Of a DNA stretch of 64,000 bases, positions 1,559 through 35,430 are shown piece by piece. Positions within the stretch are counted from its first letter, which is position 1. The number at the start of each line of letters is the position of its first letter. This DNA is from Burkholderiales bacterium RIFCSPLOWO2_02_FULL_57_36 (GTDB lineage: Bacteria > Pseudomonadota > Gammaproteobacteria > Burkholderiales > Burkholderiaceae_D). Position numbers and translations under genes: made by a program. The stretch covers positions 62,001 to 126,000 of the forward strand of contig MESE01000096.1 in the NCBI GenBank assembly GCA_001770855.1, given 5' to 3'. The notes under the pieces are model-generated. The model did not search any database, was not told where the DNA came from, and saw only the letters and a program-made list of their open reading frames with translations.

Positions 1559-2128
1559 ATGGCAACCGACAAAGAACTTTCCACTTTTCTTGAAAGCGTA
1601 GAGCGCCGGGCATTCAAGCAGGCTTTGTATGCGGTTCGCAAGGACGAGTCGGCACTGGATATTGTGCAGGATGCGATGATCAAGCTGGCCGGGAAATATG
1701 GCGACAAGCCTGCTGCAGAACTACCGTTGCTGTTTCAGCGTATTTTGCAAAACACGATCCATGATTATTTTCGCCGCGAAAAAGTGCGCGGCACATGGAT
1801 CAGCCTGTTCTCCAGCCTGGTTCCACGTTCGGAAGATAGTGAAGATTTCGATCTGCTTGACACACATGAGGCTGAAGAGGGTTCCGATGCTTCGGAATCC
1901 AGCGAAGACAAAGTCGGTCGGCACCAGATTCTTGCGGCAATCGATGAAGAAGTACAAAAACTCCCGGCCCGTCAACGAGAAGCGTTTCTCATGCGTTATT
2001 GGCAGGATATGGATGTCGCCGAAACAGCGGCGGTAATGGGATGTTCGGAGGGGAGCGTCAAAACACATTGCTCTCGAGCAACCCATGCGCTGGCCCAGGC
2101 ATTAAGAGCCAAAGGAATTACTTTATGA
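1559..2128 (+). CDS. ECF-type RNA polymerase sigma factor
   Basis: A 189-residue sigma-70-family protein with only regions 2 and 4. Region 2 is roughly residues 15-85 (ALDIVQDAMIKLAGKYG and the -10-recognition end NTIHDYFRREKVRG). An acidic linker follows (EDSEDFDLLDTHEAEEGSD). Region 4 is roughly residues 130-185 (LPARQREAFLMRYWQDMDVAE, then the helix-turn-helix MGCSEGSVKTHCSRA). The frame is closed by a stop at 1493-1495, and the ATG at 1559 is the only usable start found, although it lacks a good ribosome binding site. The stop overlaps the next ATG (ATGA), so translation is coupled to the DUF3619 protein, which is a natural candidate for its anti-sigma factor. Confidence 0.88.
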   Translation: MATDKELSTFLESVERRAFKQALYAVRKDESALDIVQDAMIKLAGKYGDKPAAELPLLFQRILQNTIHDYFRREKVRGTWISLFSSLVPRSEDSEDFDLLDTHEAEEGSDASESSEDKVGRHQILAAIDEEVQKLPARQREAFLMRYWQDMDVAETAAVMGCSEGSVKTHCSRATHALAQALRAKGITL

Positions 2129-2529
2129 ACGCCAAACAACTCAATTTTGCATATAAAGTGCGTCATGCACTTAATGAAAACCTGGACAATCTTCCGCCTT
2201 CCACCGTGGAACGACTCGCTTCTTCCCGCAAAATTGCATTATCTTTCAAAAATAGCGAAGCGCCGAAACAACGGGTAGCCATATCGAGCAAACTTGCAAG
2301 TCATGTAGGCGATCAATTTAACCAGCGCTTTTCTTTCATTGCGCGCTTTGGATTAATGGTTCCGGCTATTGTTTTAGCAGCCGGGCTGACGATTATTTAT
2401 CAATTTGAACAACAACAGCGTATCCGCGACATTGCCGAACTCGATGCCTTGGTCTTGTCTGATGAACTGCCGCTTTCAGCATACCTCGATCATGGATTCA
2501 ATGCGTATCTCGCCAAACGGGGAGAATAG
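2125..2529 (+). CDS. DUF3619-family single-pass membrane protein, possible anti-sigma factor
   Basis: A 134-residue protein whose ATG overlaps the sigma factor stop. The N-terminal ~75 residues are hydrophilic and probably cytoplasmic (MNAKQLNFAYKVRHALNENL). A single membrane helix follows near residues 78-95 (FGLMVPAIVLAAGLTIIYQF), then a short acidic tail (ELDALVLSDELPLSAYLDHG). Soluble N-terminus, one helix and coupling to an ECF sigma gene is the usual plan of membrane anti-sigma factors; that role is inferred, not known for this family. A longer in-frame ORF reaches back to 1999 but lies inside the sigma gene, so the start at 2125 is preferred. Confidence 0.8.
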   Translation: MNAKQLNFAYKVRHALNENLDNLPPSTVERLASSRKIALSFKNSEAPKQRVAISSKLASHVGDQFNQRFSFIARFGLMVPAIVLAAGLTIIYQFEQQQRIRDIAELDALVLSDELPLSAYLDHGFNAYLAKRGE

Positions 2530-2531
2530 GC

Positions 2532-3134
2532 ATGACAAGAGTTTTTGCACGAGCTTTCAGCCGCGTTGCGCAAGCGACATGCATTATTGCCGCGATTGCG
2601 ATTGGCGCAGCCGGCTATGCGTGCGCCAAACCGGCGCCGAATCTTCCGGAAAAGCCACGGTGGACCGAACTGAGTCCGCCACAACAACAGGCGCTTGCGC
2701 CATTAGCCGACGAATGGGATAAGCTAACCGCCAGCCAGAAAAAAAAATGGCTGGCGATAAGCGCTAAATTCCCATCATTGAAGCCGGACCAGCAAGCTCG
2801 CCTGCAAGACCGAATGCGCGACTGGATCAAGCTCACACCGGAGCAACGACGAGTTGCGCGTGAAAGCTACTCTCATGCAAAAAAGCTGAACCCGGATCAA
2901 AAAGCGGCAGAATGGAGGCAATATCAGCAATTACCCGAAGATCAAAAAAAGAAACTGGCCGACGATGCGGCAGTCAAGAAAAGAATTACCAATCTTCCTC
3001 CTGCGGCTCAAACAGAAGGAAAGTTGACGCCTCCGGCGAAACCACCCCGCAATTCCGACACCAATCCCTCGCGTGAGTCGACGCGGACCAATGCAGCGGC
3101 AAATCAGCCGCCTCAACAACCTTCAACCAAGTAA
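2532..3134 (+). CDS. DUF3106-family exported protein with repeated LxPxQ-like motifs
   Basis: A 200-residue protein with a Sec signal peptide of about 32 residues (hydrophobic core IIAAIAIGAAGYACA). The mature part is helical and charged, with short motifs spaced about 20 residues apart: LSPPQQQAL, LTASQKKKW, LKPDQQARL, LTPEQRRVA, LNPDQKAAE and LPEDQKKKL. The tail is rich in P, T and N. These motifs resemble the LTxxQ signatures of the periplasmic CpxP/Spy group, but no homology is claimed. It starts 2 bp after the DUF3619 stop. A periplasmic sensor or chaperone role beside the sigma/anti-sigma pair is inference. Confidence 0.8.
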   Translation: MTRVFARAFSRVAQATCIIAAIAIGAAGYACAKPAPNLPEKPRWTELSPPQQQALAPLADEWDKLTASQKKKWLAISAKFPSLKPDQQARLQDRMRDWIKLTPEQRRVARESYSHAKKLNPDQKAAEWRQYQQLPEDQKKKLADDAAVKKRITNLPPAAQTEGKLTPPAKPPRNSDTNPSRESTRTNAAANQPPQQPSTK

Positions 3135-3143
3135 GTTCTGCCC

Positions 3144-3650
3144 TTGAATACTATCGCAGCCCCATCATTGAAGCGCCGTCTCGCCAGTATGCTGTATGAA
3201 GCCATGCTGGTGTTTGCAGTCCTGTTCATCGCAGTCCTGATATTTTCCATCTTGCTGGAACAGCGCCACGCACTGTATCTGCGCGGCGCATTGCAAGACT
3301 GGCTATTTCTGGTGCTGGGCGTCTATTTCATTTGGTTCTGGACACACGGCGGCCAGACACTGGCAATGAAAACCTGGAAAATTCGTCTGGTCGATGTCAG
3401 CGGCAAGCCGGCGAGATTTTGGCGCGCGACCATCCGCTATTTTTTCGCTTGGCTATGGTTTGTGCCCGGCCTTGCTCTGGCCTGGCTGCTTGGCGCGAAA
3501 ACATCGATGCTGATCCTGATCCCATTGGCCAATATGGCGATCTGGGCGCTCGCAATCTATCTCGACCCGCATCGCCAGTTTATCCATGACCGGCTGGCAG
3601 GTACGCGCCTGGTCGTATCCGATCTCTCCGGCACCCCTGCTTCACCCTGA
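3144..3650 (+). CDS. RDD-family integral membrane protein
   Basis: A 168-residue protein with an RDD-type layout: a first helix pair near residues 18-65 (AMLVFAVLFIAVLIFSILL; WLFLVLGVYFIWFW), the polar family segment GGQTLAMKTWKIRLVD, two further helices, and the C-terminal HDRLAGTRLV typical of the family. The TTG at 3144 is taken as start because it gives a complete family N-terminus and follows AAGTAAG; the next in-frame ATG would remove about 15 residues. It is probably the last gene of the sigma operon, 9 bp after the DUF3106 gene. The molecular function of most RDD proteins is unknown. Confidence 0.85.
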   Translation: MNTIAAPSLKRRLASMLYEAMLVFAVLFIAVLIFSILLEQRHALYLRGALQDWLFLVLGVYFIWFWTHGGQTLAMKTWKIRLVDVSGKPARFWRATIRYFFAWLWFVPGLALAWLLGAKTSMLILIPLANMAIWALAIYLDPHRQFIHDRLAGTRLVVSDLSGTPASP

Positions 3651-3939: not shown

Positions 3940-6165
3940 TTGAGACAACATGTCATCCGCTTTGCACTCGGACTATTGATCCTGCTTGTGCTTTTGCTCC
4001 ACGCAGGCGAAATTTACAAGTTATCGGTTATCAGCTCCCTTGATCAGCGTTTGTACGATACGAAAATACAGCTGACCATGCCGAAAACGGTAGACGAACG
4101 TCTGGTCATTCTCGATATCGACGAAAAGAGCTTGGCCGAGATCGGCCGGTGGCCATGGGGCCGCGACCGGATGGCGACCTTGGTCAACAAGCTGTTCGAT
4201 CAATACGGCATTCGGGCACTGGGATTCGATGTCTTTCTTGCGGAGCCTGACGAAAGTTCCGGGCTAAGGGTTCTGGAAGAATTGGGAGGAAACAGACTCA
4301 AGAATAATCAGCAATATCTGGCGACATTGACTCAGCTGCGTCCGCAACTCGACTACGACAAACTGTTCGCCAAGTCCTTGCAAGGAAGACCGGTGATTCT
4401 TGGGTATTATTTCGCCAATGAAGGCAGCAACAGCGGCGCAATCCCGCCACCGGTGCTGACGGGGCCAGCTCTCAAAGGTCGAGATTCCGCTGTTTTCACC
4501 TGGTCAAACTACGGCGGTATCCTTCCGCAATTCCAACAGGTTAGCATGGGGGCCGGTTACGTCAATCCGGATACCGAGTCTGACGGAAGCGTACGGCGCG
4601 TGCCTCTGCTTGTTAAATACGATCAGAATTTCTATGAAAGCTTTTCGCTTGCCATGGTACGCGCGTTGCTGGGAAGCCCGGACATCGTTCCTGGAATCGA
4701 TGGCGCCGATGGATCTTCTTCGGACGGCTATGGGGCGATCGACTGGCTGGATTTACCGACCACCCGAGGCACGATGCGGATTCCGGTGGATGGGAACATG
4801 GCGGCTCTGGTGCCGTACCGCGGCTATGTGAAAAGCTATCGCTATTATTCAATCGCGGATATATTGGCCGACCGTATCAAGCCGGAACAACTCCAGGGGC
4901 GAATAGCGCTTGTCGGCACCTCTGCTCCCGGATTGACGGATGAAAGAACAACACCGGTTGGCAAGGTGTATCCAGGTGTAGAAGTACATGCCAACCTCAT
5001 CACCGGCATGCTGGACAACACCATCAAACTTAAACCGCAGTATGCCGTGGCCGTCGAATTCATATTCCTGCTGCTTGTGGGCGGGTTGATGATTTTTCTT
5101 TTTCCTTGGCGCTCTCCGTTACGAGCCACACTAGCTACACTTCTGGTTCTGGTTGCCGTCCTTGGTACCAATCTCGGATTGTGGCAATACGCCAATTGGG
5201 TTCAGCCGCTAGCCGCAAGCCTGTTGCTGGTGAGCGGCTTGTTCGTCCTGAACATGTCGTACGGCTACTTTGTCGAATCCAGGGCAAAACGCCAATTTAC
5301 GGAATTGTTCGGTCAGTACGTTCCTCCGGAGCTAGTGGAAGAAATGAGCCGCAATCCGCAGAGCTACAGCATGGCGGGCCGCAAAGCCGAATTGACGGTA
5401 TTATTTTCGGACATCCGAGGATTCACCGCCATGTCTGAACGCATGGAACCGGATCAGCTAGCGTACCTGATGAACGAATATTTGAGCGCCATGACGCTGG
5501 TGATACGCAGACACCGGGGCACGCTTGACAAATACATTGGTGATGCAATCATGGCGTTCTGGGGCGCTCCGGTAAGTGATTCCGGCCATGCGCGCAATGC
5601 AGTCGTCACCGCGCTGGAAATGCTGCAAGCGCTGGTCGAACTCAATCGCAACCTGATCACAAAAGGTATGCCGGAGATAAAGATCGGTATCGGCATCAAC
5701 ACCGGCAGCATGACCGTTGGCGATATGGGATCGGTAGTGCGCAAGGCTTATACCGTGATGGGAGATGCAGTCAATCTCGGCTCACGCCTGGAAAGCATCA
5801 CCAAACAGTATGGCGTCGGTATCATTGTCGGCGAAGCTACCCGCCGCGCAGTCGACGATATCCTTTTCAAGGAACTGGACCTGGTGCAGGTCGTGGGAAA
5901 AGAAGAGCCGGTCGCTATCTTCGAACCGCTCGGCCGTAAAGGTCAGCTATCCGAGGATGCGCTGGAAGAGCTGGATCTGTGGAATCAACTGTTGCAACAT
6001 TATCGGAAACAGGCATGGCAACAGGCCGACTCGGTACTTGATACCCTTGTTCAAATGCAGCCGGATTGCCGACTTTATGAACTGTACAGGGAGCGGATTG
6101 CCGCATTCCGCAAGGACGCCCCGAATGCTGCGTGGGCCGGCGTCACCAGGCTCGATACAAAATAG
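3940..6165 (+). CDS. CHASE2-domain adenylate cyclase (class III)
   Basis: A 741-residue membrane protein predicted to make cAMP from ATP in response to a periplasmic signal. It has an N-terminal helix (residues 6-22), a CHASE2 sensor region of about residues 30-340 (VDERLVILDIDEKSLAEIGR; ALVGTSAPGLTDERTTPVG), three membrane helices at about 365-440, and a class III cyclase domain at about 480-620. Metal-binding aspartates D491 (FSDIRGF) and D535 (YIGDAIMAFWG) are present. The lysine in LDKYIGD and the aspartate in VMGDAVNLGSRLE, which select adenine, are also present, so ATP rather than GTP is expected. The start is TTG at 3940 after AAGCGAAGGG. It heads the operon through 10982. Confidence 0.92.
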   Translation: MRQHVIRFALGLLILLVLLLHAGEIYKLSVISSLDQRLYDTKIQLTMPKTVDERLVILDIDEKSLAEIGRWPWGRDRMATLVNKLFDQYGIRALGFDVFLAEPDESSGLRVLEELGGNRLKNNQQYLATLTQLRPQLDYDKLFAKSLQGRPVILGYYFANEGSNSGAIPPPVLTGPALKGRDSAVFTWSNYGGILPQFQQVSMGAGYVNPDTESDGSVRRVPLLVKYDQNFYESFSLAMVRALLGSPDIVPGIDGADGSSSDGYGAIDWLDLPTTRGTMRIPVDGNMAALVPYRGYVKSYRYYSIADILADRIKPEQLQGRIALVGTSAPGLTDERTTPVGKVYPGVEVHANLITGMLDNTIKLKPQYAVAVEFIFLLLVGGLMIFLFPWRSPLRATLATLLVLVAVLGTNLGLWQYANWVQPLAASLLLVSGLFVLNMSYGYFVESRAKRQFTELFGQYVPPELVEEMSRNPQSYSMAGRKAELTVLFSDIRGFTAMSERMEPDQLAYLMNEYLSAMTLVIRRHRGTLDKYIGDAIMAFWGAPVSDSGHARNAVVTALEMLQALVELNRNLITKGMPEIKIGIGINTGSMTVGDMGSVVRKAYTVMGDAVNLGSRLESITKQYGVGIIVGEATRRAVDDILFKELDLVQVVGKEEPVAIFEPLGRKGQLSEDALEELDLWNQLLQHYRKQAWQQADSVLDTLVQMQPDCRLYELYRERIAAFRKDAPNAAWAGVTRLDTK

Positions 6166-6176
6166 GTCGATAAGAA

Positions 6177-6944
6177 ATGAAGGTAAGAATCCTTGGCTGC
6201 AGCGGTGGAATCGGCGGACGCCATCTGCGTACGACCTCGATGCTGGTCGATCACGATATTTTGATCGACGCCGGCACAGGGGTGGGCGAACTCGAAATCG
6301 CGGAATTGGCACTGATCGATCATGTTTTCATCACCCATTCGCATCTGGACCATATTGCCTTTTTGCCGTTCATTCTTGATGCTGTCGGCGATCTGCGCGC
6401 CAAGCCGTTGACAATGTATGCAACCCAGGCGACGCAAGACCTCATCAGAACGCATATTTTCAACTGGTCGATCTGGCCCGACTTCAGCGAAATTCCTAAT
6501 GCGAATAATCCTTATCTTCGTTTCCGCGCCATTCGATTAGGTGAGCACGTCATGCTCGGAGAACGCAGGATTACCGCGCTGCCTGCTACGCATACCGTTC
6601 CCGCCGTCGGCTACCGCCTCGACAATGGACGTGCGAGCCTGGTATTCACCGGCGATACCACTACCAACGACGATTTCTGGCGCGAACTGAACAAGATCAC
6701 CGATCTGCGCTACCTGATTATCGAAACCGCGTTCTCCAACAGCGACAGACAACTTGCCGTCGTATCCAAACATCTTTGCCCCAGCATGCTCGACGAGGAA
6801 CTTCAAAAACTGCAGCGTAATCCGGAAATATTCATTACGCATTTGAAGCCCGGTCGCGGCGAGATTACGATGCAGGAGATACAGGAAAGCATCGGCAAAC
6901 GCAAACCGCGCATGCTGCAAAACAATCAAGTATTCGAATTTTAA
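6177..6944 (+). CDS. Metallo-beta-lactamase-fold hydrolase, cyclic nucleotide phosphodiesterase-like
   Basis: A 255-residue protein of the MBL fold. The metal-binding motif THSHLDH covers residues 53-59, with a further aspartate in FTGDTTTNDDFW and a late histidine in FITHLKPGRGEI. The opening KVRILGCSGGIGG and the DAGTGVGELEIAELALIDHVFITH layout resemble the class II cAMP phosphodiesterase / RNase Z-like branch. The gene starts 12 bp after the adenylate cyclase. A simple inference is that it removes cAMP made by the upstream enzyme, but the substrate cannot be read from sequence alone. Confidence 0.8.
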   Translation: MKVRILGCSGGIGGRHLRTTSMLVDHDILIDAGTGVGELEIAELALIDHVFITHSHLDHIAFLPFILDAVGDLRAKPLTMYATQATQDLIRTHIFNWSIWPDFSEIPNANNPYLRFRAIRLGEHVMLGERRITALPATHTVPAVGYRLDNGRASLVFTGDTTTNDDFWRELNKITDLRYLIIETAFSNSDRQLAVVSKHLCPSMLDEELQKLQRNPEIFITHLKPGRGEITMQEIQESIGKRKPRMLQNNQVFEF

Positions 6945-6971
6945 CGATTCAATGACGAACGGTGAAATGAC

Positions 6972-9338
6972 ATGAGCGCAGTTTTAGGAACACAGCAGGC
7001 TGGTGGGGCAGACGTCAACGGCCGCCTGGAGTTTTTCAAAAAGCTTCAGGCGGTTACCAACAAGATCCATGCGACCGCCAACGTCGACGAGATCATGCTC
7101 GATCTGTCGCTGGACATCTCCAATTTGTTTCATTGCGATCGGCTTACCATTTATGTACTGAGCGACGGCCGGGACTTCATTGTTTCCAAAATCAAAACCG
7201 GGCTTACCTCATTTACCGACCTGCAGTTGCCGGTATCCGAACAAAGCGTGGCGGGCTTTGTCGCGCTTTTCAAGCGCACCGTCAACATAAGAGACGTCTA
7301 CGACGATGCGGAGCTGAAGATGCATTCGCCTGGCCTGCACTTTCTGCAGGAAGTGGATAAACGCACCGGATATCGCACCAGGGAAATGCTGGTCGCTCCT
7401 TTGATCAACGCGCAAACAGGTGAGTTGCTCGGCGTGATACAGCTAATCAATAACCGTTTGGGCGGGCCTTTTGATCCGATCGCCGAGGAGGGGCTCCGGG
7501 AGCTGTGCGCAACGCTCGCAATTGCGTTTAACCACAGGCTCAAGCCGGTGCAGCGAATTCGTTCGAAGTACGAATTTTTGATCTCGGATGGAGTACTGTC
7601 GGCACCGGAATTCGAACTTGCGACGCGGTCCGCGAGACGGCAAAACATCGACGTCGAAGAGGTTCTGATCAATGAGTTCCAGGTCAAGCGCTCAGCTGTC
7701 GGAGATGCACTTGGCAAGTTTTTCGGCGTGCCCTATACGCCCTACAAACCGGAGCGAATCAAACCGCTCGACCTGCTGAAAAACATGAAGCGCGATTACG
7801 TCGAGCTGAATCGATGGTTGCCGATCGAAGATGGCAAGGACGGCCTGGTCATTCTGACCACCGACCCTGAACAGGTAAAGAGTGCCCGTATCGTCAATAA
7901 TGTATTTCCCAAAGCCAGAGCAATCTACAACGTCATAACCAATTCTGAATTCAAGCAAACCATTGATCAGTTCTTCGGGATCGCCGATGATCCGACATCC
8001 GTCGGCGATATGCTGATAGGGATGGAAGACGGCGACGAGGACAACAACGATGTTTCGGCGACCGATATCTCGGCCGCTGCCGAGAATGAACTGGTCAAGC
8101 TGGTCAACAAGATCATCGTCGACGCCTACCGCCAGGGCGCATCCGATATTCATATCGAGCCGAGTCCGGGCAAGGAAAAAACGGTCATTCGATTCCGCAA
8201 GGACGGCTCTCTCGAAAATTACATCGAAATACCGGCAAGCTATCGGAACGCAATCTTGGCGCGCATCAAGATCATGTGCGATCTCGACATTTCGGAACGG
8301 CGCAAGCCGCAGGACGGGAAAATCAAGTTCAAGAAATATGGACCGCTCGACATCGAACTGCGGGTCGCAACCATACCTTCAGCCGGCGGCGTCGAGGACG
8401 TCGTGATGCGTATTCTTGCCGCGGGAGAACCGATCCCGCTCGACAAGCTCGGCGTGCTTCCTTACAACCTGGAGCGGCTCAAGGAGACGGTCAGCAAGCC
8501 GTATGGAATATTTTTTGTCTGCGGCCCGACCGGTTCCGGGAAAACCACCACGCTGCATTCGGTGCTCAGCTTCCTCAACACGCCCGACACGAAAATCTGG
8601 ACTGCGGAAGACCCGGTCGAAATTACCCAGAAAGGATTGCGCCAGGTTCAGGTCAATCGCAAGGCCGGGCTTGATTTCGCCACAGTGATGCGTGCATTCC
8701 TGCGCGCCGATCCGGACATCATCATGGTCGGCGAAATGCGCGACAAGGAAACCGTATCGATCGGCCTTGAGGCATCGCTGACCGGCCACCTGGTATTCGC
8801 CACCCTGCACACCAATAGCGCGCCGGAATCGATCGTGCGGCTGCTGGACATGGGCATGGACCCGTTCAACTTTGCCGACGCATTGCTCGGTGTGCTGGCG
8901 CAACGCCTGGCCAAACGGCTATGTTCGAAGTGCAAGACGGCTTACCATCCCGGCGCGGACGAAGTCGAGCAGTTGCTGACCGAGTATTGCGAAGAATTGC
9001 TGAATACCGATACCTTCATCAAGGATCCGCAGGCAGGAAAAAATGCGGTACGAGAAGGATGGAAGAAAAAATATGCGGACGACAAGGGTCAGTTCACGCT
9101 TTATCGTGCTGTGGGCTGCGACCAATGCGGCAAGGGCTACAAGGGACGAGTCGGCCTGCACGAACTGATGGTGGGCTCCGACAAGATAAAGAAACTGCTT
9201 CAGGAACACGCACGAGTGGCGCAACTGCTGGCGGCAGCGCTGGAAGACGGCATGCTTACGCTGAAGATGGACGGTATTGAAAAAGTGCTCTCCGGCGCGA
9301 CCGATATCAAGCAGGTACGTCAGGTCTGCATTAAATAA
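6972..9338 (+). CDS. GAF-domain fused GspE/PilB-type secretion ATPase
   Basis: A 788-residue protein. An N-terminal GAF domain spans about residues 20-180 (CDRLTIYVLSDGRDFIVSK; LLGVIQLINNR). A GspE/MshE N-terminal-like region follows at about 195-330. A full hexameric ATPase occupies about 365-780: Walker A GPTGSGKTTTLHSVL near residue 517, Asp box ASDIHIEPS, Walker B DPDIIMVGEMRDKETV, His box GHLVFATLHTN, and a four-cysteine zinc site (CSKCKTAYHP, CDQCGKGYKG). The catalytic parts look intact. GAF fusion is unusual for this family, and no secretin, platform or pseudopilin gene lies in this operon. It may drive a pilus or secretion machine encoded elsewhere, or act as a signalling ATPase. Confidence 0.88.
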   Translation: MSAVLGTQQAGGADVNGRLEFFKKLQAVTNKIHATANVDEIMLDLSLDISNLFHCDRLTIYVLSDGRDFIVSKIKTGLTSFTDLQLPVSEQSVAGFVALFKRTVNIRDVYDDAELKMHSPGLHFLQEVDKRTGYRTREMLVAPLINAQTGELLGVIQLINNRLGGPFDPIAEEGLRELCATLAIAFNHRLKPVQRIRSKYEFLISDGVLSAPEFELATRSARRQNIDVEEVLINEFQVKRSAVGDALGKFFGVPYTPYKPERIKPLDLLKNMKRDYVELNRWLPIEDGKDGLVILTTDPEQVKSARIVNNVFPKARAIYNVITNSEFKQTIDQFFGIADDPTSVGDMLIGMEDGDEDNNDVSATDISAAAENELVKLVNKIIVDAYRQGASDIHIEPSPGKEKTVIRFRKDGSLENYIEIPASYRNAILARIKIMCDLDISERRKPQDGKIKFKKYGPLDIELRVATIPSAGGVEDVVMRILAAGEPIPLDKLGVLPYNLERLKETVSKPYGIFFVCGPTGSGKTTTLHSVLSFLNTPDTKIWTAEDPVEITQKGLRQVQVNRKAGLDFATVMRAFLRADPDIIMVGEMRDKETVSIGLEASLTGHLVFATLHTNSAPESIVRLLDMGMDPFNFADALLGVLAQRLAKRLCSKCKTAYHPGADEVEQLLTEYCEELLNTDTFIKDPQAGKNAVREGWKKKYADDKGQFTLYRAVGCDQCGKGYKGRVGLHELMVGSDKIKKLLQEHARVAQLLAAALEDGMLTLKMDGIEKVLSGATDIKQVRQVCIK

Positions 9339-10982
9339 ATGGATAGCAGTGTGAGCACCATCGACGATCTCTTGCTCCGCTTTGAGCAACTCAACGAGAT
9401 CGGTGCCGCGCTATCGAGCGAGCGGGATATCAACCGCCTGCTGGAAAAAATCCTGATCGCCGCCAAGCAAATTACTAACGCAGACGGCGGCACTCTCTAC
9501 TTGCTGGATGAAGATGGAACCCATCTGAAGTTTGAAATTCTGCACAGTAACAGCCTGAACATCACCATGGGCGGTACGTCGGGAAACCCGATTCCATTTC
9601 AGCCGCTGCCGCTTGCCCAACCGGATGGCTCGCCAAATGAATCGATGGTCGCTGTGTATTGTGCGCTTCATAAATGCACTATCAACATTTCCGATGCGTA
9701 TGCTGCGGAAAATTTCGATTTTTCCGGAACCCGCAGCTTCGACTCCAGGACCGGTTATCGCTCGAAATCATTTCTGACCGTGCCGATGAAAAATCACGAA
9801 AGTGAACTCATCGGCGTCTTGCAATTGATCAATGCGCTGGACCAGAACATGGGTGATGTCATTGCGTTTTCTTCCGAGTCGCAAAGACTGGTGGAATCGC
9901 TCGCATCGCAGGCGTCGATCGCGGTTTCGAATCGCCAACTGACCCTGCAGCAGGAAAAGTTGTTCGAATCGTTCATTGACATGATCAATTTCGCGATTGA
10001 CGACAAATCAGCCTATACCGGCGGGCACTGCCAACGTGTGCCGACATTGACAATGATGCTGGCAGAGGCGGTAGCGAACGCTGAAGACGGGCCGTTCGCG
10101 TCATTCAGGATGACAGATCAGGATCGCTATGAACTCAAAATCGCCGGGCTATTGCACGATTGCGGCAAGATCACGACGCCGGTGCACATCGTCGACAAGG
10201 CGACCAAACTGGAAACCATCTACGACCGCATTGATCTGGTCGATACCCGCTTCGAAGTATTGAAACGCGATGCGGAGATCGCCATGCTCAAGGCAAGGCT
10301 GGCACTGCGCATTCCAACCGATCCGTTGACCGAACGTTCGCTTGAATCCGGATTCAAGCAACAACTTGATGCGTTGGAACAAGATCGTGCGTTTTTACAG
10401 CACGCCAATACCGGAAGCGAAACCATGGAAGAGAAAGATCGGCAGGCGGTACGCGACATCGGCACCAAGCGCAAATGGACGAATCCGAATGGCGACACGG
10501 TCGATTTCCTCACCGCCAACGAGATGGATAATCTGACGATCCGTTCCGGAACGCTCGGCAAGGCTGAACGCGACATCATCAACCACCATATCGTTGTCAC
10601 GATCAAGATGCTCGAAAGCCTGCCATGGGTCAAACATTTGAAGCGGGTACCGGAATATGCTGGTGGACATCACGAACGCATGGATGGGAAAGGCTATCCG
10701 CGCGGCCTGACCCGTGATGAAATGTCGGTCCAGGCGCGTATCATGGGCATCGCGGATATTTTTGAAGCGCTCACCGCAAGCGACCGTCCCTACAAGCCGG
10801 GTAAAACCCTGTCGGAGTCATTGCAAATCATGAAGAAATTCCGCATTAACGGACATATCGATCCTGATTTATTCGATATTTTTGTACAGAGCAAGGTCTA
10901 TCTGCGGTATGCGCACCAGTTCTTGAGTCCAGAACAAATTGATATGGTGAACGAAGCAAGCATTCTCCAATCCGCGGCTTGA
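9339..10982 (+). CDS. GAF and HD-GYP domain protein, predicted c-di-GMP phosphodiesterase
   Basis: A 547-residue cytoplasmic protein that starts immediately after the ATPase stop. A GAF domain covers about residues 15-195 (ADGGTLYLLDEDGTHLKFEI; SELIGVLQLINALD). The HD-GYP half begins with YTGGHCQRV; the HD pair is H273-D274 (LLHDCGK), and H445 opens HERMDGKGYPRGL, which carries GYP at 452-454. IMGIADIFEALTASDRPYKP closes the domain. All signature residues are present, so hydrolysis of c-di-GMP is likely. HD and HHE are separated by about 170 residues, roughly 110 more than in typical members, which indicates an inserted segment near 295-400. Confidence 0.88.
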   Translation: MDSSVSTIDDLLLRFEQLNEIGAALSSERDINRLLEKILIAAKQITNADGGTLYLLDEDGTHLKFEILHSNSLNITMGGTSGNPIPFQPLPLAQPDGSPNESMVAVYCALHKCTINISDAYAAENFDFSGTRSFDSRTGYRSKSFLTVPMKNHESELIGVLQLINALDQNMGDVIAFSSESQRLVESLASQASIAVSNRQLTLQQEKLFESFIDMINFAIDDKSAYTGGHCQRVPTLTMMLAEAVANAEDGPFASFRMTDQDRYELKIAGLLHDCGKITTPVHIVDKATKLETIYDRIDLVDTRFEVLKRDAEIAMLKARLALRIPTDPLTERSLESGFKQQLDALEQDRAFLQHANTGSETMEEKDRQAVRDIGTKRKWTNPNGDTVDFLTANEMDNLTIRSGTLGKAERDIINHHIVVTIKMLESLPWVKHLKRVPEYAGGHHERMDGKGYPRGLTRDEMSVQARIMGIADIFEALTASDRPYKPGKTLSESLQIMKKFRINGHIDPDLFDIFVQSKVYLRYAHQFLSPEQIDMVNEASILQSAA

Positions 10983-28139: not shown

Positions 28140-28615
28140 CACCGGCTCACCGTCGCTCGCAATTGACGCTCGACATAATGCGGCGAGCCTGTCGTTGCAC
28201 CATTAATGGCGGTCGACGTGAATTGATAAACTCGCACCGTAACGCCGGCCTCTACGTGATCCGAGAGGATGCAGTCCACCGTTACCGTGAATCCCGCGAG
28301 CGCTCCGCCCAATGGAGGTAATGTCGTCGGCCCCGGGCAAACGGGAGCTGCAGCCGGGGGCGGCGGCACTTGAAGCACCTGATACAACCCCCATTCAATC
28401 CCGGTACGTGCCGCCTGATAGGCCCGCGTGCCTTCCATGTCCTGGGTCGCCGTTGTATGTTGCACGGTCGAGAAAGTCAGCATGAATGCGCCCAGAGAAG
28501 CCATCACGACCAGCAGGAAAATCGCCGACACGATGGAGAATCCGCGCTGGGCGGTTGCGCCTGCTTTGCGGCGGTTTTGCTGGTTTCGCTTGGTTTCAGG
28601 GCACATTGCTGACAT
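28139..28615 (-). CDS. mshP: MSHA minor pilin-like protein MshP
   Basis: About 158 residues. After a basic N-terminus (ETKRNQQNRRKAGATAQRG) comes a prepilin-type cleavage site G/FSIVSAIFLLVVMASLGAF, but position +5 is serine rather than glutamate, as is common in MshP/PilX-type minor pilins. The C-terminal domain carries two cysteines. The start is uncertain: the ATG at 28615 has GAGGCGC just before it, but ATGs at 28606, 28624 and 28645 share the frame and all overlap the end of mshO. Confidence 0.82.
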   Translation of the reverse strand: MSAMCPETKRNQQNRRKAGATAQRGFSIVSAIFLLVVMASLGAFMLTFSTVQHTTATQDMEGTRAYQAARTGIEWGLYQVLQVPPPPAAAPVCPGPTTLPPLGGALAGFTVTVDCILSDHVEAGVTVRVYQFTSTAINGATTGSPHYVERQLRATVSR

Positions 28616-29420
28616 GCGCCTCATGGTAAAGCGTGACGGTTTCATTACTTTGCGTCAACGACAGACGCATCGACACCAGCCCGCTGCGTTCAGTGATACC
28701 CGGCTCATAGACGAACGCGCAAGCGCTCACGTTTTGCGCCAGTAATGCGCCGCCGCTTGCCGGTGGATCGGGCTGGGGAGTATCAACGATCGCATATCCC
28801 GAATAGCGCGTCAGCGTCGCAACGCCCGCAGACAAGTCGCATCGATATGTAACGGGCGTATCGACCACTTGAAAAGTGTGGCTGGGCGAATCGAACGGAA
28901 AAGGATTTATGGGGGTGATTTGAATGATCGGCGCCGCGCCGCCATCGTATGTACGCCGGTTGTTACCGATGTAGGCATCCGCACCCAGAATACCAAGGTT
29001 ATAAATGACAATCTGGTTCTGGTGGTCGAGTGAGGTCGCCTGGAACGCAATTGCCGGCCCAAGTAATTCGAAGCTCTGGTCATCCTGCGTAAAATCCAGG
29101 ATATCGTCCCCAGGCACACCGGGCTCCGCGCGATAACGTCCGCCGGCACTGGTCAGAAGGAACTCAATGGCGATAGTGCTTGGCGTACTTGTAATGCGCA
29201 CGCTATTGGGCAAAGCCAGATGCACGTCGCGTGAAAAGCGGCGAACCGCGGTATCGGCAACATCGGTCAATTCGGCGCGGCGCGCGGCATCGAAATAGCC
29301 CTCTATCGGCGCACGGATGAACACCGCGACTACGGAAGCGATGATACCGGTGATGGCAATCACCACCACCGCCTCGACCAGGGTAAATCCCCGTTGCCGC
29401 CTTTTCATGAATGTCCGCAT
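28596..29420 (-). CDS. mshO: MSHA minor pilin MshO
   Basis: A 274-residue type IV prepilin-like protein. The leader MRTFMKRRQRG is followed by FTLVEAVVVIAITGIIASVV, with Glu at +5. The large globular part includes FDAARRAELTDVADTAVRRF, SRDVHLALPNSVRI, typical of MshO/PulJ-like pseudopilins, and two cysteines (TYRCDLSAG, NVSACAFVYEP). It starts 3 bp after mshD. It probably forms the minor pilin tip complex with MshP, MshQ, MshC and MshD. Confidence 0.87.
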   Translation of the reverse strand: MRTFMKRRQRGFTLVEAVVVIAITGIIASVVAVFIRAPIEGYFDAARRAELTDVADTAVRRFSRDVHLALPNSVRITSTPSTIAIEFLLTSAGGRYRAEPGVPGDDILDFTQDDQSFELLGPAIAFQATSLDHQNQIVIYNLGILGADAYIGNNRRTYDGGAAPIIQITPINPFPFDSPSHTFQVVDTPVTYRCDLSAGVATLTRYSGYAIVDTPQPDPPASGGALLAQNVSACAFVYEPGITERSGLVSMRLSLTQSNETVTLYHEAHVSNVP

Positions 29421-29423
29421 CCG

Positions 29424-29999
29424 TCACAACCCCGCATTCGGCGCGTACCGCATCCGGTAACCCGTCAAGGTGACATCGACGGTGGCGCCGGATACCACAC
29501 GCACATCGATCCGCAATGAAGCATCGGCCGGAACCGTTCCTACTGCGGAATTGGCGATCATCACCGTCGCGGTGTAATTTTCCAGTCCGGTAATCGCGAC
29601 GTTATCCAGGCCACGAATGCCGGCCATGGAAAAGCCGCTGTAATCATTCACATTATTGAACGGGTCCGGTGGATAGCGCGATTGAGTCAATTCGGCACCG
29701 GAGCCCTCCGCCACCGCATCGCAACCGCCTGGTCCAACAAATGCACCGGTCGCCGTCGCCACGTTGGCATCTGTCGGATCGCAATAGGTGAAAGGTTGCA
29801 GTTGGATTTCTTCCAGCAGTGACTCGGCGATGGACAACGCCTGTTTGCGCTGCATCGGATCGGCGCTGGACTTGGTAGTGACGTTCATCACCGACAGGAT
29901 GCCGGCAATGCCGACACTGACGATAATAATGAACATGATCAACTCGACCAGCGATATGCCCGCCTGGCGACGCTTGATGGTCTTGTCAGGGATGAACAT
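29424..29999 (-). CDS. mshD: MSHA minor pilin MshD
   Basis: A 191-residue prepilin-like protein. The leader MFIPDKTIKRRQAG is followed by ISLVELIMFIIIVSVGIAGI, so isoleucine rather than phenylalanine is at +1 while Glu is at +5. The segment MNVTTKSSADPMQRKQALSI, AESLLEEIQLQPFTYCDP is the PulI/MshD-type motif after the helix. Its start overlaps the end of mshC by 14 nt, indicating coupling. Role: minor pilin for priming or tip assembly. Confidence 0.87.
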   Translation of the reverse strand: MFIPDKTIKRRQAGISLVELIMFIIIVSVGIAGILSVMNVTTKSSADPMQRKQALSIAESLLEEIQLQPFTYCDPTDANVATATGAFVGPGGCDAVAEGSGAELTQSRYPPDPFNNVNDYSGFSMAGIRGLDNVAITGLENYTATVMIANSAVGTVPADASLRIDVRVVSGATVDVTLTGYRMRYAPNAGL

Positions 30000-30447
30000 A
30001 TCCGGTTTCCCGTTCTACGGTAATCGTTCTGGTGATCCCGTCGCCGACGATTCCAATCACCACAGCAGCGTTGGGTTCAGGCCTGCCCAGCGCCGAAAAG
30101 GAAAAAGCATCCGAACCGTCCAGAGTGACGCCGTCCGGTGCGGGTCTGCTGAATCTCGACTGATCGGCAGGATTGATCACGACGTTCACCACATTGGTAC
30201 AGCCTGGATCAGAGACGTAGGTCAGGCAGACCGTGTCGCTTCCGCCGTCTGCATTCACGAATACACTGGTGCGCTGGGCAATCGCGGCTTTTTGCGCATA
30301 ACGCACCATGGCCAGCACTTGGTCATGGTAGCCGCGCGCCTCAAAAGTCTGCTGTTGGAAAAACCGGGGAATCGCTGCCACTGCCAGTATGCCGACAATC
30401 ATCATGACAACGATTAGCTCAACCAGAGTAAAGCCGGATTGCCTCAT
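29986..30447 (-). CDS. mshC: MSHA minor pilin MshC
   Basis: A 153-residue prepilin-like protein. The leader MRQSG is followed by FTLVELIVVMMIVGILAVAA, then a GspH-like segment (YHDQVLAMVRYAQKAAIAQR). One cysteine pair lies in VCLTYVSDPGCTN. It is the first gene after the mshA-mshC gap, which carries a stem-loop. It is probably a minor pilin that starts pilus assembly. Confidence 0.87.
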   Translation of the reverse strand: MRQSGFTLVELIVVMMIVGILAVAAIPRFFQQQTFEARGYHDQVLAMVRYAQKAAIAQRTSVFVNADGGSDTVCLTYVSDPGCTNVVNVVINPADQSRFSRPAPDGVTLDGSDAFSFSALGRPEPNAAVVIGIVGDGITRTITVERETGYVHP

Positions 30448-30504
30448 TGTCGTTAGCCTTTTTACGTCGGCGGCATTCAGGTCGAATAAGCTAAGCGTTA
30501 AAGA

Positions 30505-30526
30505 CTGAGGTGCCTGAGCACCCCAG
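30505..30526 (-). terminator. Stem-loop downstream of mshA
   Basis: CTGAGGTGC and GCACCCCAG form a stem with one mismatch and a CTGA/TCAG loop. On the mshA strand it is followed by TCTTTAA, a poor T-run; on the other strand TTTTATTT follows. It lies about 145 bp after the mshA stop and about 60 bp before mshC, in a 225 bp gap with no gene. It could partly terminate or stabilise mshA mRNA so that the major pilin is made in excess over mshC-Q. Confidence 0.5.
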
Positions 30527-30672
30527 TTTTATTTGCACAGAACAAAATGCATATGCACTTTTTTCTGAAACCATAAAGAAAACCGCGCCTACACAAATTG
30601 ACGACAAATAAATCGACCATCTGCAGCGCGTATGAGACCCGCTGTATTACCACCTATGCCAAGCGCAGCAAG

Positions 30673-31044
30673 CTACGAGCCGATGATCACAACATTGATA
30701 CTCGAAGTGCCCTTGGTCAGCACACAAGTGGCCGCCTCGCCTGCCGTTGTCGCACCGCCGCTCAGTGTATAACCCGAGGCTGATGCAGTGGGCTGGATCA
30801 AACCGTCTGCGCCGAGACAAGTTGCTACAGCTACACCTTTGGCATTACTACTAGCCAGTCTGGCCGCATAGTTAATCGAAGAGGCAGAAGAAAGTGCTCC
30901 ACCCACGCCTTGAAGTGCTGCAGTTTCAGCTTCAGAAGAAAGATCAATGAACTTCGGCAATGCCGTCGCAGCCAAAATACCCAGAATCACAATGACGACA
31001 ACCAGTTCAATCAGGGTAAAACCACCTTGAATATTTTTGCGCAT
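30673..31044 (-). CDS. mshA: MSHA major pilin MshA
   Basis: A 123-residue type IVa-like pilin with a leader of 8 residues, MRKNIQGG, then FTLIELVVVIVILGILAATA, Glu at +5, and LPKFIDLSSEAETAALQGVG, the MshA signature. A disulfide is likely between the cysteines in VATCLGADG and AATCVLTKG. It is short compared with the roughly 175-residue Vibrio MshA. The ribosome binding site AGGAGAAGAAA precedes the ATG. mshB lies 67 bp upstream. Confidence 0.9.
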   Translation of the reverse strand: MRKNIQGGFTLIELVVVIVILGILAATALPKFIDLSSEAETAALQGVGGALSSASSINYAARLASSNAKGVAVATCLGADGLIQPTASASGYTLSGGATTAGEAATCVLTKGTSSINVVIIGS

Positions 31045-31111
31045 TTTCTTCTCCTAAAAAATCAGTTATTTGTTTAAAGGTACGTCTGGAATTAAAATTA
31101 TTCTTGCTGGA

Positions 31112-31606
31112 TCAGCATCCCGTGGTTACCAACACAGGCGCTACATAACTCGGACCTGCCGTGGCGGCCGTATAGCTAATTCGACAGTTCGGCGCGGTCC
31201 CTCCCACGATATCGATCAAAATCGGATTTCCTGCGGTAATCACAAGCTGATCCGCTCCTGCATCCAACTGGGCTGCCAAGATAATCCCGGCCGCGGTTGC
31301 GGCCGGATACTGATTCACCATGTTGATGCTCGTACCATCCATATTGGTGGTTCCCGCTGTCGCAGTACAGGTGGATGGCGTTACCAAACCGGCTACGTCC
31401 ATCATGCAACTTGCCCGCGCCAGCGCGGCTGCCGATTTAATCGAACCCAGGATTGCCTGTGCCTTGGCAGCGCGTGCCTGCGACTGCATATTGATATAGC
31501 GCGGCAAAGCGATTGCGGACATGATTGCGATGATTGAAATAACCACAACCAGCTCAATGAGGGTAAAGCCCGCTTGGCGATGATTCGGTTGATTTTTTTG
31601 CTGCAA
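31112..31606 (-). CDS. mshB: Second MSHA pilin, MshB-like
   Basis: A 164-residue pilin starting at TTG: MQQKNQPNHRQAG is a 13-residue leader before FTLIELVVVISIIAIMSAIA. The TTG at 31606 is chosen because a strong ribosome binding site, AGGAGGCCGG, lies 5-6 bp upstream; an ATG-containing extension to 31660 would give an odd, long leader and overlap the FNR-type palindrome. LPRYINMQSQARAAKAQAIL is MshA/MshB-like. Four cysteines lie in the mature part. Position before mshA suggests MshB; it could be a co-major pilin. Confidence 0.85.
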   Translation of the reverse strand: MQQKNQPNHRQAGFTLIELVVVISIIAIMSAIALPRYINMQSQARAAKAQAILGSIKSAAALARASCMMDVAGLVTPSTCTATAGTTNMDGTSINMVNQYPAATAAGIILAAQLDAGADQLVITAGNPILIDIVGGTAPNCRISYTAATAGPSYVAPVLVTTGC

Positions 31607-31646
31607 ACCGGCCTCCTGTCTCCTGGAACATTTCATTACTAAAATG

Positions 31647-31660
31647 TTGATGCGCATCAA
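31647..31660. promoter_or_regulatory. Perfect FNR/ANR-type palindrome upstream of mshB
   Basis: TTGATGCGCATCAA is an exact match to TTGAT-N4-ATCAA, the consensus of FNR/ANR oxygen-responsive regulators. It lies 40 bp upstream of the mshB TTG start in a 160 bp intergenic gap. A -10-like TATAAG lies about 16-21 bp further upstream on the minus strand; if that is the promoter, the site would overlap the start of the transcript and repress it. The consensus is established; binding here is inference. Confidence 0.5.
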
Positions 31661-31766
31661 TAGTCAGGCGTTGTCTTATAGAAATTACTTACATTATGCG
31701 CATGTTGAATGTAGATGACTAGTGCTTAAATGCATGTATTTCTCCCGTGTATATGGGATACAACAA

Positions 31767-32345
31767 TTAAATCTCACTCCAACCTAGCCGTATTTCCCAT
31801 TTATATGGGCTTAATAACACCAAAGAGAGACCTTCGATCGACCGCGTTCCGTCACCGGACGTTACAGGCACGGCGGCAATTCGATAGCGGATGGAGTGGT
31901 TGCCATAAAGCTGCGGCTGAAAATAACGATGGCGAAAGGGTGTGTAAACCAGTTCCCGCCGCACGTTGTCGAAGTACCAGTTACCACGCACTGTATCGTC
32001 TTGCTTCGCATTTGCTCGCTCGCCGATGTAATTCGGCGGAGGGGTTTCAAGCCAGGTAATCGGGTTGTCTTGCAACAGCCGATCGATTTCATGGAGCCGG
32101 TCGCGCATCATCAAATCCGCCACCCGCAGCCGCAACCCCGTCCGGAGATTTCGTGCGGTCACTTCCATCGCGGTTTTCTCCGCATACTCTTGATAACGCA
32201 ACATGCGCTCGGATAGAACGGTGGCCAGCAAGCCGATCATCGTGATGCCGATGGCCAGTTCGAACAAACTGAAGCCCGCGCAACGATGCCGGTATATGCG
32301 GCCTGGCATGCGACGAACGGATGTGCGGTGCAGAACCTCCATCAT
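31767..32345 (-). CDS. mshF: MSHA biogenesis protein MshF, prepilin-like
   Basis: A 192-residue protein whose ATG overlaps the mshG stop (ATGA). It has a long basic N-terminus of about 24 residues, then G/FSLFELAIGITMIGLLATVL with Glu at +5, and a coiled helix (SERMLRYQEYAEKTAMEVTA). The C-terminal domain includes WLETPPPNYIGERAN and GNWYFDNVRRELVYTP, which fit MshF. A shorter start at 32309 is possible but lacks a ribosome binding site. Confidence 0.82.
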   Translation of the reverse strand: MMEVLHRTSVRRMPGRIYRHRCAGFSLFELAIGITMIGLLATVLSERMLRYQEYAEKTAMEVTARNLRTGLRLRVADLMMRDRLHEIDRLLQDNPITWLETPPPNYIGERANAKQDDTVRGNWYFDNVRRELVYTPFRHRYFQPQLYGNHSIRYRIAAVPVTSGDGTRSIEGLSLVLLSPYKWEIRLGWSEI

Positions 32346-33571
32346 TTTGGAAGCGCCACCTTGCCAAGATCCCAGATCGGCAGGAAAACGCCCAGCGCCA
32401 GAATCAATACAAGTATCCCCAACCCCATGATCAAGATCGGCTCGATCTTGGACGAAAGCGTCTTCAATTCATAATCGACTTCGCGTTCATACATGCCGCC
32501 GATTTCATCCATCAGGCTGTCCAGCTCACCGGTTTCCTCGCCTACGGCGATCATTTGCAAGACCACCGGTGTGAACACGCCGGTCGTCACCGCGGTACGC
32601 AGGATGCTCTCGCCGCGCTCCACCCCGTCCCGCATCTGCTCGATGCGGCTGGCAATGTAGCTGTTGTCCACCGTCTGGGAAACGACACTCAGGCCCTGCA
32701 CGATCGGCACACCGCTTTTGCTGGACAGCGCGAAACTGCGCGCGAAACGCGCCATGGTGGCTTTCGAAACGATGTCGCCGACGATCGGGAGGCGCAACTT
32801 GGTTTTGTCCCAGCGATATCTGCCGTTCGGCGTAGCGATATACATCTTGAAACCGACCGCTGCGGCAATCACGGCGGCCAGCATGAAGGGCCAGTAATTT
32901 ATCGTGAAGTTGGATAAGTTGATCAAAATGCGCGTCATCAGCGGCAGGTCCGCCTTGAAGCCGGCATACACTTTGGCAAATGCAGGAATCACGAAAACGT
33001 TGATCACGATAATCGCGACTGTCATCGCGATTACCACGAACATCGGATAGCGCAGCGCCGTACGCACTCGCTCGCGCATGTCTCGTTCGAATTCCAAATG
33101 CCCGAACAGGCGCATGAAAATCTCTTCCAGGCGTCCGGTCGCTTCTCCTACGCGCACCATATTCAGATAGAAAGTCGAAAAAATATCGGGATGGCGGCGC
33201 ATCGCCGCGGACAATTCACGGCCGGAATCAAGCGATTCACGGATATCCTTCAACACCCGGGAAAACGCCTTGCTGGTCGCCGACTCCTGCAATCCCGCCA
33301 AACCACGCATGATCGGAACGCCGGCCTTCAGCAGCGTATACATTTGCCGGCTGAAGAGCTGTACGTCGATGGCACGCACCTTTTCTTCGGTCAAACGAGA
33401 CCACCAGCCCCCCTCGCCGTCCACGACCGGCTTTCTGGTAGCAACGATTTCAATCGGCGTAACGCCGGTATTGAAAAGCTGGTCCGCTACCGCACCGCTA
33501 TCCGCGCTTTCAAGCACGCCTTGCAGCATCTCGCCACGGGCATTGCGGGCTTTGTAGGCAAAATACGGCAC
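32342..33571 (-). CDS. mshG: MSHA platform protein MshG (GspF/PilC family)
   Basis: A 409-residue inner-membrane platform protein with two homologous T2SSF domains. It begins at GTG: MPYFAYKARNARGEMLQGVL. Motifs: FSRQMYTLLKAGVPIMRGLA in the first domain and FARSFALSSKSGVPIVQGLS in the second, each followed by helices; the last helix pair ends ILIMGLGILVLILALGVFLP. AGGA precedes the GTG. It would translate ATP hydrolysis by MshE into pilin extraction. Confidence 0.92.
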   Translation of the reverse strand: MPYFAYKARNARGEMLQGVLESADSGAVADQLFNTGVTPIEIVATRKPVVDGEGGWWSRLTEEKVRAIDVQLFSRQMYTLLKAGVPIMRGLAGLQESATSKAFSRVLKDIRESLDSGRELSAAMRRHPDIFSTFYLNMVRVGEATGRLEEIFMRLFGHLEFERDMRERVRTALRYPMFVVIAMTVAIIVINVFVIPAFAKVYAGFKADLPLMTRILINLSNFTINYWPFMLAAVIAAAVGFKMYIATPNGRYRWDKTKLRLPIVGDIVSKATMARFARSFALSSKSGVPIVQGLSVVSQTVDNSYIASRIEQMRDGVERGESILRTAVTTGVFTPVVLQMIAVGEETGELDSLMDEIGGMYEREVDYELKTLSSKIEPILIMGLGILVLILALGVFLPIWDLGKVALPK

Positions 33572-33597
33572 GTTATTTCCTGTGGAAGGAGGTGATG

Positions 33598-35301: not shown

Positions 35302-35430
35302 AAGCACTCCTCTATTTGTCAGGCTTATTTGAAAAAATCACATCTATATCGCTTGCCGGCAGGATACTTACCTTCAGGAATTTTTATGATGTCCCAAAGT
35401 GCACCTTATCGTCAAGATAGATTCGTTGCG

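Follow-up and report, generated by a model that had tools for sequence, protein, structure and literature searches.

A 64,000-nucleotide stretch of DNA from Burkholderiales bacterium RIFCSPLOWO2_02_FULL_57_36 (contig MESE01000096.1, positions 62,001 to 126,000; hereafter the window) carries a conserved locus of four genes, encoding a membrane adenylate cyclase, a hydrolase of the MBL fold, a motor ATPase with a GAF domain and a GAF-HD-GYP protein. We read this locus, with about as much belief as doubt, as a module through which second messengers control an extension motor of the type IV-pilus-like kind. The genes lie at positions 3940-10982, where the list of open reading frames (ORFs) of the window gives four plus-strand frames separated by 11, 27 and 0 bp. 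A preliminary description, made from the sequence alone, had given this order and spacing and had assigned a membrane-sensing adenylate cyclase, an MBL enzyme, a GAF-ATPase and a GAF/HD-GYP protein. The ORF coordinates and the Pfam matches agree on all of these points, and the GAF domain and the motor part of the ATPase were found as claimed, while the MshEN domain between them had been overlooked. That the four-gene locus is real and conserved is hereby confirmed. Its features are as follows.

3940-6165, plus strand: membrane adenylate cyclase with CHASE2 sensor, 741 aa, TTG start
about 3982-5088 and about 5380-5907, plus strand: CHASE2 sensor and class III cyclase domain of the cyclase (Pfam)
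6177-6944, plus strand: MBL-fold hydrolase, candidate class-II-type cyclic AMP (cAMP) phosphodiesterase (PDE), 255 aa
6336-6353, plus strand: HSHLDH metal-binding and class II PDE motif, residues 54-59 of the MBL protein (alignment)
6972-9338, plus strand: GAF-MshEN-T2SSE ATPase, PilB/GspE-type motor, 788 aa
7101-7526, plus strand: GAF domain of the ATPase (residues 44-185); R57, T59, I74, D129 and T132 take CyaB2-like contact positions
7563-7985, plus strand: MshEN-like region of the ATPase, with degenerate motifs for binding cyclic di-GMP (c-di-GMP)
8082-9317, plus strand: T2SSE domain of the ATPase, with Walker A, Asp box, Glu588, His box and tetracysteine motif
9339-10982, plus strand: predicted GAF-HD-GYP c-di-GMP phosphodiesterase, 547 aa
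about 9426-9926 and about 10023-10871, plus strand: GAF and HD-GYP domains of the latter protein (Pfam)

Conservation and gene neighborhood

By scanning with the N-terminus of the ATPase, we found at least 571 stretches encoding a relative at E <= 1e-3, possibly including other GAF proteins. The 80 best-scoring of these, which are not a random sample, constitute the named loci. Gene matches in GC-rich loci rest on tblastn. In 57 named loci, the flanks of the ATPase match reach at least 5 kb upstream and at least 1.7 kb downstream; of these 57, 44 had all four window genes on the ATPase strand, or 48 when either strand was counted. Among the matches listed, the nearest named one to the ATPase N-terminus, in a Herminiimonas metagenome-assembled genome (MAG), shows 72% identity and has the same four genes.

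With at least 8.6 kb upstream and at least 1.7 kb downstream, 54 of the named loci allowed a longer order to be counted, and in 38 of them eight genes follow one another on one strand: CHASE2-Ser/Thr kinase, PP2C, FHA, cyclase, MBL, cNMP_binding/rhodanese, GAF-ATPase and GAF-HD-GYP. Taken singly, the kinase was found on the ATPase strand in 42, PP2C in 46, FHA in 47 and the cyclase in 44 of these loci, and the CHASE2+Pkinase, PP2C and FHA assignments were each checked with Pfam on one representative. The window-type arrangement of four genes appeared in a single locus (L075). Another five had a divergent layout, with the HD-GYP and MBL genes, and in four of the five also the cyclase, opposite to the ATPase strand; several genomes of the window's family likewise keep the cyclase, HD-GYP, MBL and ATPase genes in a divergent layout without the kinase arm. 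Azospira oryzae DSM 21223 (L148) is an example of the eight-gene cluster and Noviherbaspirillum (L090) of the divergent layout. As the eight-gene order prevails in the named loci, the window locus is a shortened version of a larger betaproteobacterial cluster. The self-contained circuit of the preliminary description does not hold up in this respect, since in most named loci its four genes belong to the second half of that cluster. Elsewhere in the window's genome, a draft of 5.4 Mb in 151 contigs (completeness 97.5%, contamination 5.2%), the best candidate for the kinase arm, at G000:C96:216657, gave a match of 44% in the kinase domain, and neither PP2C nor FHA was matched in the 18 kb around it; two weaker kinase loci (26-30%) had a PP2C match of 27-30% alongside and no FHA match.

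A survey of 100 genomes, i.e. the window's own and 99 relatives (some of which are also represented among the named loci, e.g. L035, which shares its matches with the named locus L075), used E-value limits set by us and counted partial or weak matches as absent. Orthologs of the ATPase were found in 44 genomes, of the cyclase in 46, of the HD-GYP protein in 44 and of the MBL protein in 47, with all four in 26 genomes and none in 37; together with the named loci, this establishes that the gene order is not restricted to one strain. When both members of a pair were present, they lay within 8 kb of each other in 33 of 34 genomes for MBL-ATPase, 32 of 35 for cyclase-MBL, 29 of 34 for cyclase-ATPase, 27 of 38 for cyclase-HD-GYP, 27 of 35 for MBL-HD-GYP and 25 of 33 for ATPase-HD-GYP; nearly all remaining pairs sit on separate contigs, often of fragmented assemblies, which leaves the distance undefined. 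The cyclase and the HD-GYP protein were both present in 38 genomes and both absent from 48 (phi 0.72, a value that, like the Fisher values of this survey, ignores shared ancestry). In a class-wide sample of 113 other genomes, of which one is listed as belonging to the same order and 91 are not listed, only two encode a relative of the ATPase N-terminus, at 29% identity, and no match to the partner genes was found in 19 kb around each of them. On this sample, the cluster looks confined to the order.

The cNMP_binding/rhodanese gene, which the window lacks, was located directly 5' of the ATPase in all 60 named loci where the two genes share a strand; of the 76 loci with at least 1.2 kb of upstream DNA, 57 carry it. 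Two further loci of the 80 gave a weak opposite-strand match only. Both domains were verified with Pfam on three representatives. Among the 100 genomes there are 11 clear orthologs, all beside the ATPase or the MBL gene, including one that is divided between the ends of two contigs. No clear ortholog was found in the window's genome (best match E 1e-8, to the rhodanese part only), nor in 15 others of the 26 genomes with all four orthologs. Judged by its predicted domains, this gene is independent evidence for cyclic-nucleotide business in the neighborhood.

Upstream of the window's locus lie genes for a sigma factor, a DUF3106 protein and an RDD protein (window 1559-3650), which are colinear with the putative operon also in L035, L037 and L175, and the neighborhood therefore appears to be old in the window's family. 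As regards a possible single transcript of the four genes, promoter-like sites (5, versus 5.7 in shuffled sequences) and terminator-like sites (7 versus 10.1) showed no excess over shuffles. Three MAG records titled Bordetella parapertussis (L107, L120 and L146) hold the cluster or part of it; the label is probably wrong, as the isolate names look environmental. No description of this cluster, or of a GAF-bearing pilus ATPase, was found in the open-licence literature, which was covered mostly by titles and abstract starts.

The ATPase: motor, MshEN region and GAF domain

The ATPase matched the Pfam domains GAF (E 3.1e-10), MshEN (E 3.3e-6) and T2SSE (E 3.1e-115). Motif counts here and below come from alignments of each window protein with its relatives from 40 loci (34 for the ATPase, 23 for HD-GYP, 28 for MBL and 25 for the cyclase), which omit short, interrupted and, for the cyclase, less than 35%-identical matches. 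The GPTGSGKT Walker A motif, E588, H606/H613 and the four Cys occur in 35 of 35 sequences, as is typical of the PilB/GspE superfamily, and the best solved relative is PilB. The protein was rejected as the strain's own PilB, as it scored 478.3 against a cut-off of 675.65 bits (TIGR02538), a value exceeded by two further ATPases encoded in the genome. A rough tree, which carried long-branch warnings, groups it with the paralog C69 (100/99), apart from the two PilBs. In C69 (L159 1498-3948, minus strand), the closest paralog in the genome, an N-terminal part is followed by as many as four MshEN-type repeats (10, 9, 8 and 7 of 11 positions).

MshEN domains bind c-di-GMP by means of two 24-residue motifs, according to the available text of PMC5013675. 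When the 35 GAF-ATPases were scored for this motif (RLGxx...LxxQ), their best matches covered 5-7 of 11 positions, compared with 4-7 in shuffled versions. The MshE-type ATPase encoded in the same window, taken as an internal control, reached 10 of 11 in both halves. With its motif at chance level, the MshEN region was rejected as the motor's c-di-GMP reader. These alignments are most plainly read as a loss of c-di-GMP reading in this ATPase branch, with a GAF domain in its stead, in which case a link to c-di-GMP would most likely run through the HD-GYP enzyme. The control ATPase (33598-35307) belongs to an MSHA-like pilus cluster on the minus strand (window 28596-35307), together with a GspF-like ORF (32342-33571) and several pilin-like ORFs, all named by eye.

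In sequence searches of the PDB, the ATPase GAF domain matched best to the GAF pair of the cyclase CyaB2 (1ykd, E 2.6e-25), followed by the GAF domains of PDE2, PDE10, PDE5 and PDE6. With the exception of a GAF-HD-GYP protein (4mcw), the first 20 of the 27 matches were GAF domains of cyclic nucleotide (cNMP) cyclases or PDEs, or cAMP-bound ones, the first other GAF domain appearing only at E 0.0084. In CyaB2 GAFb, cAMP is contacted by Arg291, Thr293, Ile308, Asp356 and Asn359, as given in the accessible part of PMC4411481. The first four align with R57 (R in 34 of 35), T59 (33 of 35), I74 (V/I in 34 of 35, mostly Val) and D129 (34 of 35) of the ATPase, and Asn359 is replaced by T132 (T in 33 of 35). 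On this basis the ATPase GAF domain likely binds cAMP. Some observations count against such binding. The NKFDE motif is incomplete, with N160 and F167 invariant, K replaced by N/S/T and D not conserved; in PDE2 GAFb, cGMP was no longer bound once residues of this motif had been changed to alanine (PMC11977230, available portion). By structure, moreover, the domain shows no greater closeness to CyaB2 (1ykd, Z 16.8) than to ptsP GAF domains (Z 20.3, the top value, and 19.2), in a ranking that intermixes cNMP GAF domains with ptsP and other ones, and that was obtained with an ATPase model of middling quality (pLDDT 74).

The output of the motor is likely a pilus. Of the 49 named loci with enough flanking DNA, 13 have a same-strand pilin match within 1.5 kb after the HD-GYP gene (at 174-309 bp in 11 of the 13), which is suggestive only. 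Speaking against the pilus link, no pilin match was found just downstream in the other 36 loci or in the window, the sole PF00114 pilin of the window's genome being on another contig. Five loci (L069-L073) and genome G009 also encode proteins that share 41-51% identity with the N-terminus of the ATPase and whose frames, of 367-456 aa, lack the ATPase domain; Pfam identified GAF and MshEN in one of these. Such proteins might bind a ligand in partnership with the motor, or might inhibit it.

The cyclase, the HD-GYP protein and the MBL protein

The cyclase matched CHASE2 (E 3.1e-55) and Guanylate_cyc (E 5.9e-23), and D491, D535, K531, D609, N612 and R616 are kept in 26 of 26 sequences. We take D491 and D535 to be the two metal-binding Asp residues, K531 and D609 the adenine pair, presumably selecting ATP rather than GTP, and N612 and R616 the transition-state residues. 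By its domains and residues, the protein qualifies as a predicted class III adenylate cyclase with a CHASE2 sensor.

The HD-GYP protein matched GAF (E 2.2e-13) and HD_5 (E 5.4e-42). Its metal ligands H230, H273, D274, H283, H417, H444, H445 and D473 are kept in 24 of 24 sequences, as is G452 of the GYP motif, with Y453 and P454 in 23 each. In our alignment to the E/D-T-G pattern, D222 (D/E in 23 of 24), T227 (24 of 24) and G228 (22 of 24) take the corresponding places; if D222 is the E/D of that pattern, the available part of PMC4159591 would predict a trinuclear metal centre. The GAF domain has sequence matches to PDE5 and CyaB2, with the contact positions T52 (24 of 24), I67 (22 of 24), D135 (24 of 24) and T138 (15 of 24). 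Weighing against cAMP binding, the position of the CyaB2 Arg is occupied by Gly (19 of 24) or Ala (5 of 24), and the NKFDE motif is incomplete: N165 and F177 are kept, K is mostly A, E is Q, and D, present in 22 of 24, is Ser in the window. The suggestion in the preliminary description that both downstream proteins could read cAMP through their GAF domains is supported for the ATPase, whose pocket resembles cNMP-binding ones in its CyaB2-type contacts, and weakened for the HD-GYP protein by the missing Arg, with NKFDE incomplete in both.

The MBL protein matched Lactamase_B_2 (E 3.3e-17) and, over residues 47-109 only, PDEase_II (PF02112, 45.5 bits with a cut-off of 23.7). Its metal ligands H54, H56, D58, H59, H139, D160 and H222 are kept in 29 of 29 sequences, with L57 in 27, and the HSHLDH motif fits the class II PDE motif HXHLDH as given in the available text of PMC9293780. 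The first structural match of its predicted model (pLDDT 91) was yeast PDE1 (Z 26.1). Arguing against a cAMP phosphodiesterase, RNase Z (Z 25.6) and YhfI (Z 25.3) are tied with PDE1, the RNase Z profile outscores the cNMP phosphodiesterase profiles, and the MBL gene occurs without a cyclase or ATPase ortholog in 7 of the 100 genomes, in 5 of them alone. Membership in RNase Z proper was rejected (67.4 against a cut-off of 292.95 bits, TIGR02651), leaving a fold relative only. Compared with RNase Z 1y44, about 40 residues seem to be missing, as judged from two weak alignment pieces, and we take this segment to be the tRNA-binding arm. The NCBIfam cyclic-nucleotide PDE model NF041851, presumably built for Rv1339, gave 36 bits with a cut-off of 400.

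In ten genomes counted as lacking the MBL gene (G001, G005, G009, G011, G017, G039, G043, G047, G051 and G055), an MBL-like gene of lower similarity (E 3e-6 to 1e-10) sits beside the cyclase, HD-GYP or ATPase gene, suggesting that an MBL function is wanted at this place. The neighborhood is colinear also in G024 (L175), where the MBL and HD-GYP genes are full length. All that can still be recognised there of the cyclase is a stretch of 91 residues at its start, and of the ATPase one of 44 residues at its end. That cyclase and motor are reduced together fits a coupling of the two, and the retention of the MBL gene argues against an MBL protein serving this cyclase alone. A cAMP phosphodiesterase is our best guess from context, as the fold alone is indecisive; of the earlier likeness to class II enzymes, the HSHLDH motif and PF02112 remain, next to an equally RNase Z-like fold.

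Proposed mechanism and alternatives

In the mechanism we propose, the CHASE2 cyclase would sense something outside the inner membrane and make cAMP. By binding to the GAF domain of the PilB-like ATPase, at the position where related motors read c-di-GMP via MshEN, this cAMP would change the activity of the motor directly. A second target of the cAMP may be the GAF domain of the HD-GYP enzyme, a predicted c-di-GMP hydrolase, so that one signal would set the motor and the c-di-GMP level together, and the MBL enzyme beside the cyclase would hydrolyse cAMP and reset the system. In most named relatives, the cNMP_binding/rhodanese protein and a CHASE2 kinase/PP2C/FHA phosphorylation arm are part of the same cluster. 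Binding of cAMP by the GAF domains, its hydrolysis by the MBL protein, the motor's role in driving a pilus and the sign of each effect are inferred. Put at its most specific, i.e. an extension motor with a blinded MshEN region and a cAMP-reading GAF domain, clustered with a cAMP source, a cAMP sink and a c-di-GMP phosphodiesterase, and in most relatives with a second cAMP receptor and a phosphorylation arm, the proposal is a tentative one. The circuit of cAMP, c-di-GMP and motor ATPase envisaged at the outset is partly supported, with the MshEN motif of the ATPase lost and the two GAF domains not equivalent.

It is rather unlikely that the GAF domains bind another ligand (cGMP or some other small molecule) or none, serving dimerisation, in which case the genes would be merely co-regulated and the cyclase would address other receptors. 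The incomplete NKFDE motifs, the Arg lost from the HD-GYP GAF domain and the structural ranking of ptsP and other GAF domains as high as cNMP ones are what such a reading would lead one to expect, and the cNMP_binding/rhodanese protein, where present, could alone be the cAMP receptor. The sequence search, however, ranks cNMP GAF domains first by a wide margin, the contact positions are nearly invariant, and in the 16 of 26 four-ortholog genomes without a clear cNMP_binding/rhodanese gene, the window's included, the cluster would have no candidate readers other than the GAF domains. We are similarly doubtful that the MBL protein acts on another phosphodiester, e.g. the linear HD-GYP product or an RNA end. 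This would agree with RNase Z matches as good as or better than those to PDE families, and with an MBL gene kept with HD-GYP in G024 or standing alone elsewhere; it fits less well with a PF02112 score above cut-off, curated RNase Z cut-offs far from reached, the segment seemingly missing relative to 1y44 and the near-constant proximity to the cyclase.

Finally, phosphorylation might be the main control, with the CHASE2 kinase/PP2C/FHA arm setting the motor, the cAMP parts being secondary and the window's genes a remnant. Although these three genes are about as frequent in the named loci as the cyclase, and are absent from the window's locus, we regard this as quite improbable: the window's four frames are intact with conserved catalytic motifs, and the same-family genomes with a divergent layout keep the four genes without the kinase arm.

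Comparison with known systems

A cAMP-activated GAF-HD-GYP protein is already known, namely Tlr0485 of Thermosynechococcus, for which cAMP is given as the activating signal (PMC8846402, Table 5). Unlike Tlr0485 as described there, the window's protein is clustered with a cyclase, an MBL protein and a motor, and its GAF domain lacks the Arg. In the cited portions of PMC6717892 and PMC8846402, cAMP likewise gates a c-di-GMP enzyme in Bd1971 (Bdellovibrio, cNMP-binding-EAL) and Lcd1 (Leptospira, GAF-GGDEF; 5w10), which differ in having an EAL or GGDEF output, in Bd1971 a cyclic nucleotide-binding (CNB) sensor, and no motor ATPase. The tandem GAF adenylate cyclase CyaB2 of Anabaena is the nearest solved sequence relative of the ATPase GAF domain, with matching contacts, but carries its GAF domains on the cyclase itself, whereas the window's cyclase and putative GAF readers are separate proteins. 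The extension ATPases MshE and PilB share a T2SSE ATPase with an MshEN-like region in front; the window's ATPase has lost the MshEN motif, gained a GAF domain and stays below the curated PilB cut-off. Yeast PDE1 and Rv1339, a typical and an atypical class II PDE, have the MBL fold and the HXHLDH and [T/S]HXHXDH motifs, respectively, in common with the MBL protein (PMC9293780, same available text).

As far as the available parts of PMC5013675 and PMC11656802 go, some motors read c-di-GMP, and cAMP governs pili through transcription. In Pseudomonas aeruginosa, cAMP also controls type IV pili, in the Pil-Chp/CyaB/Vfr system, but works on transcription via Vfr, and that review of PilB control never uses the word GAF (PMC11656802). 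The new element would hence be the cAMP-read motor, the GAF-HD-GYP part being of a known kind. If true, this would be, as far as our literature search shows, the first case of cAMP switching a pilus motor by binding to it directly, and would join the cAMP and c-di-GMP currencies in one genetic unit with a motor. It would also offer a compact, testable system in environmental betaproteobacteria, in which the cluster is common, as indicated by the at least 571 stretches with a relative of the ATPase N-terminus and by the eight-gene order in 38 of the 54 best loci.

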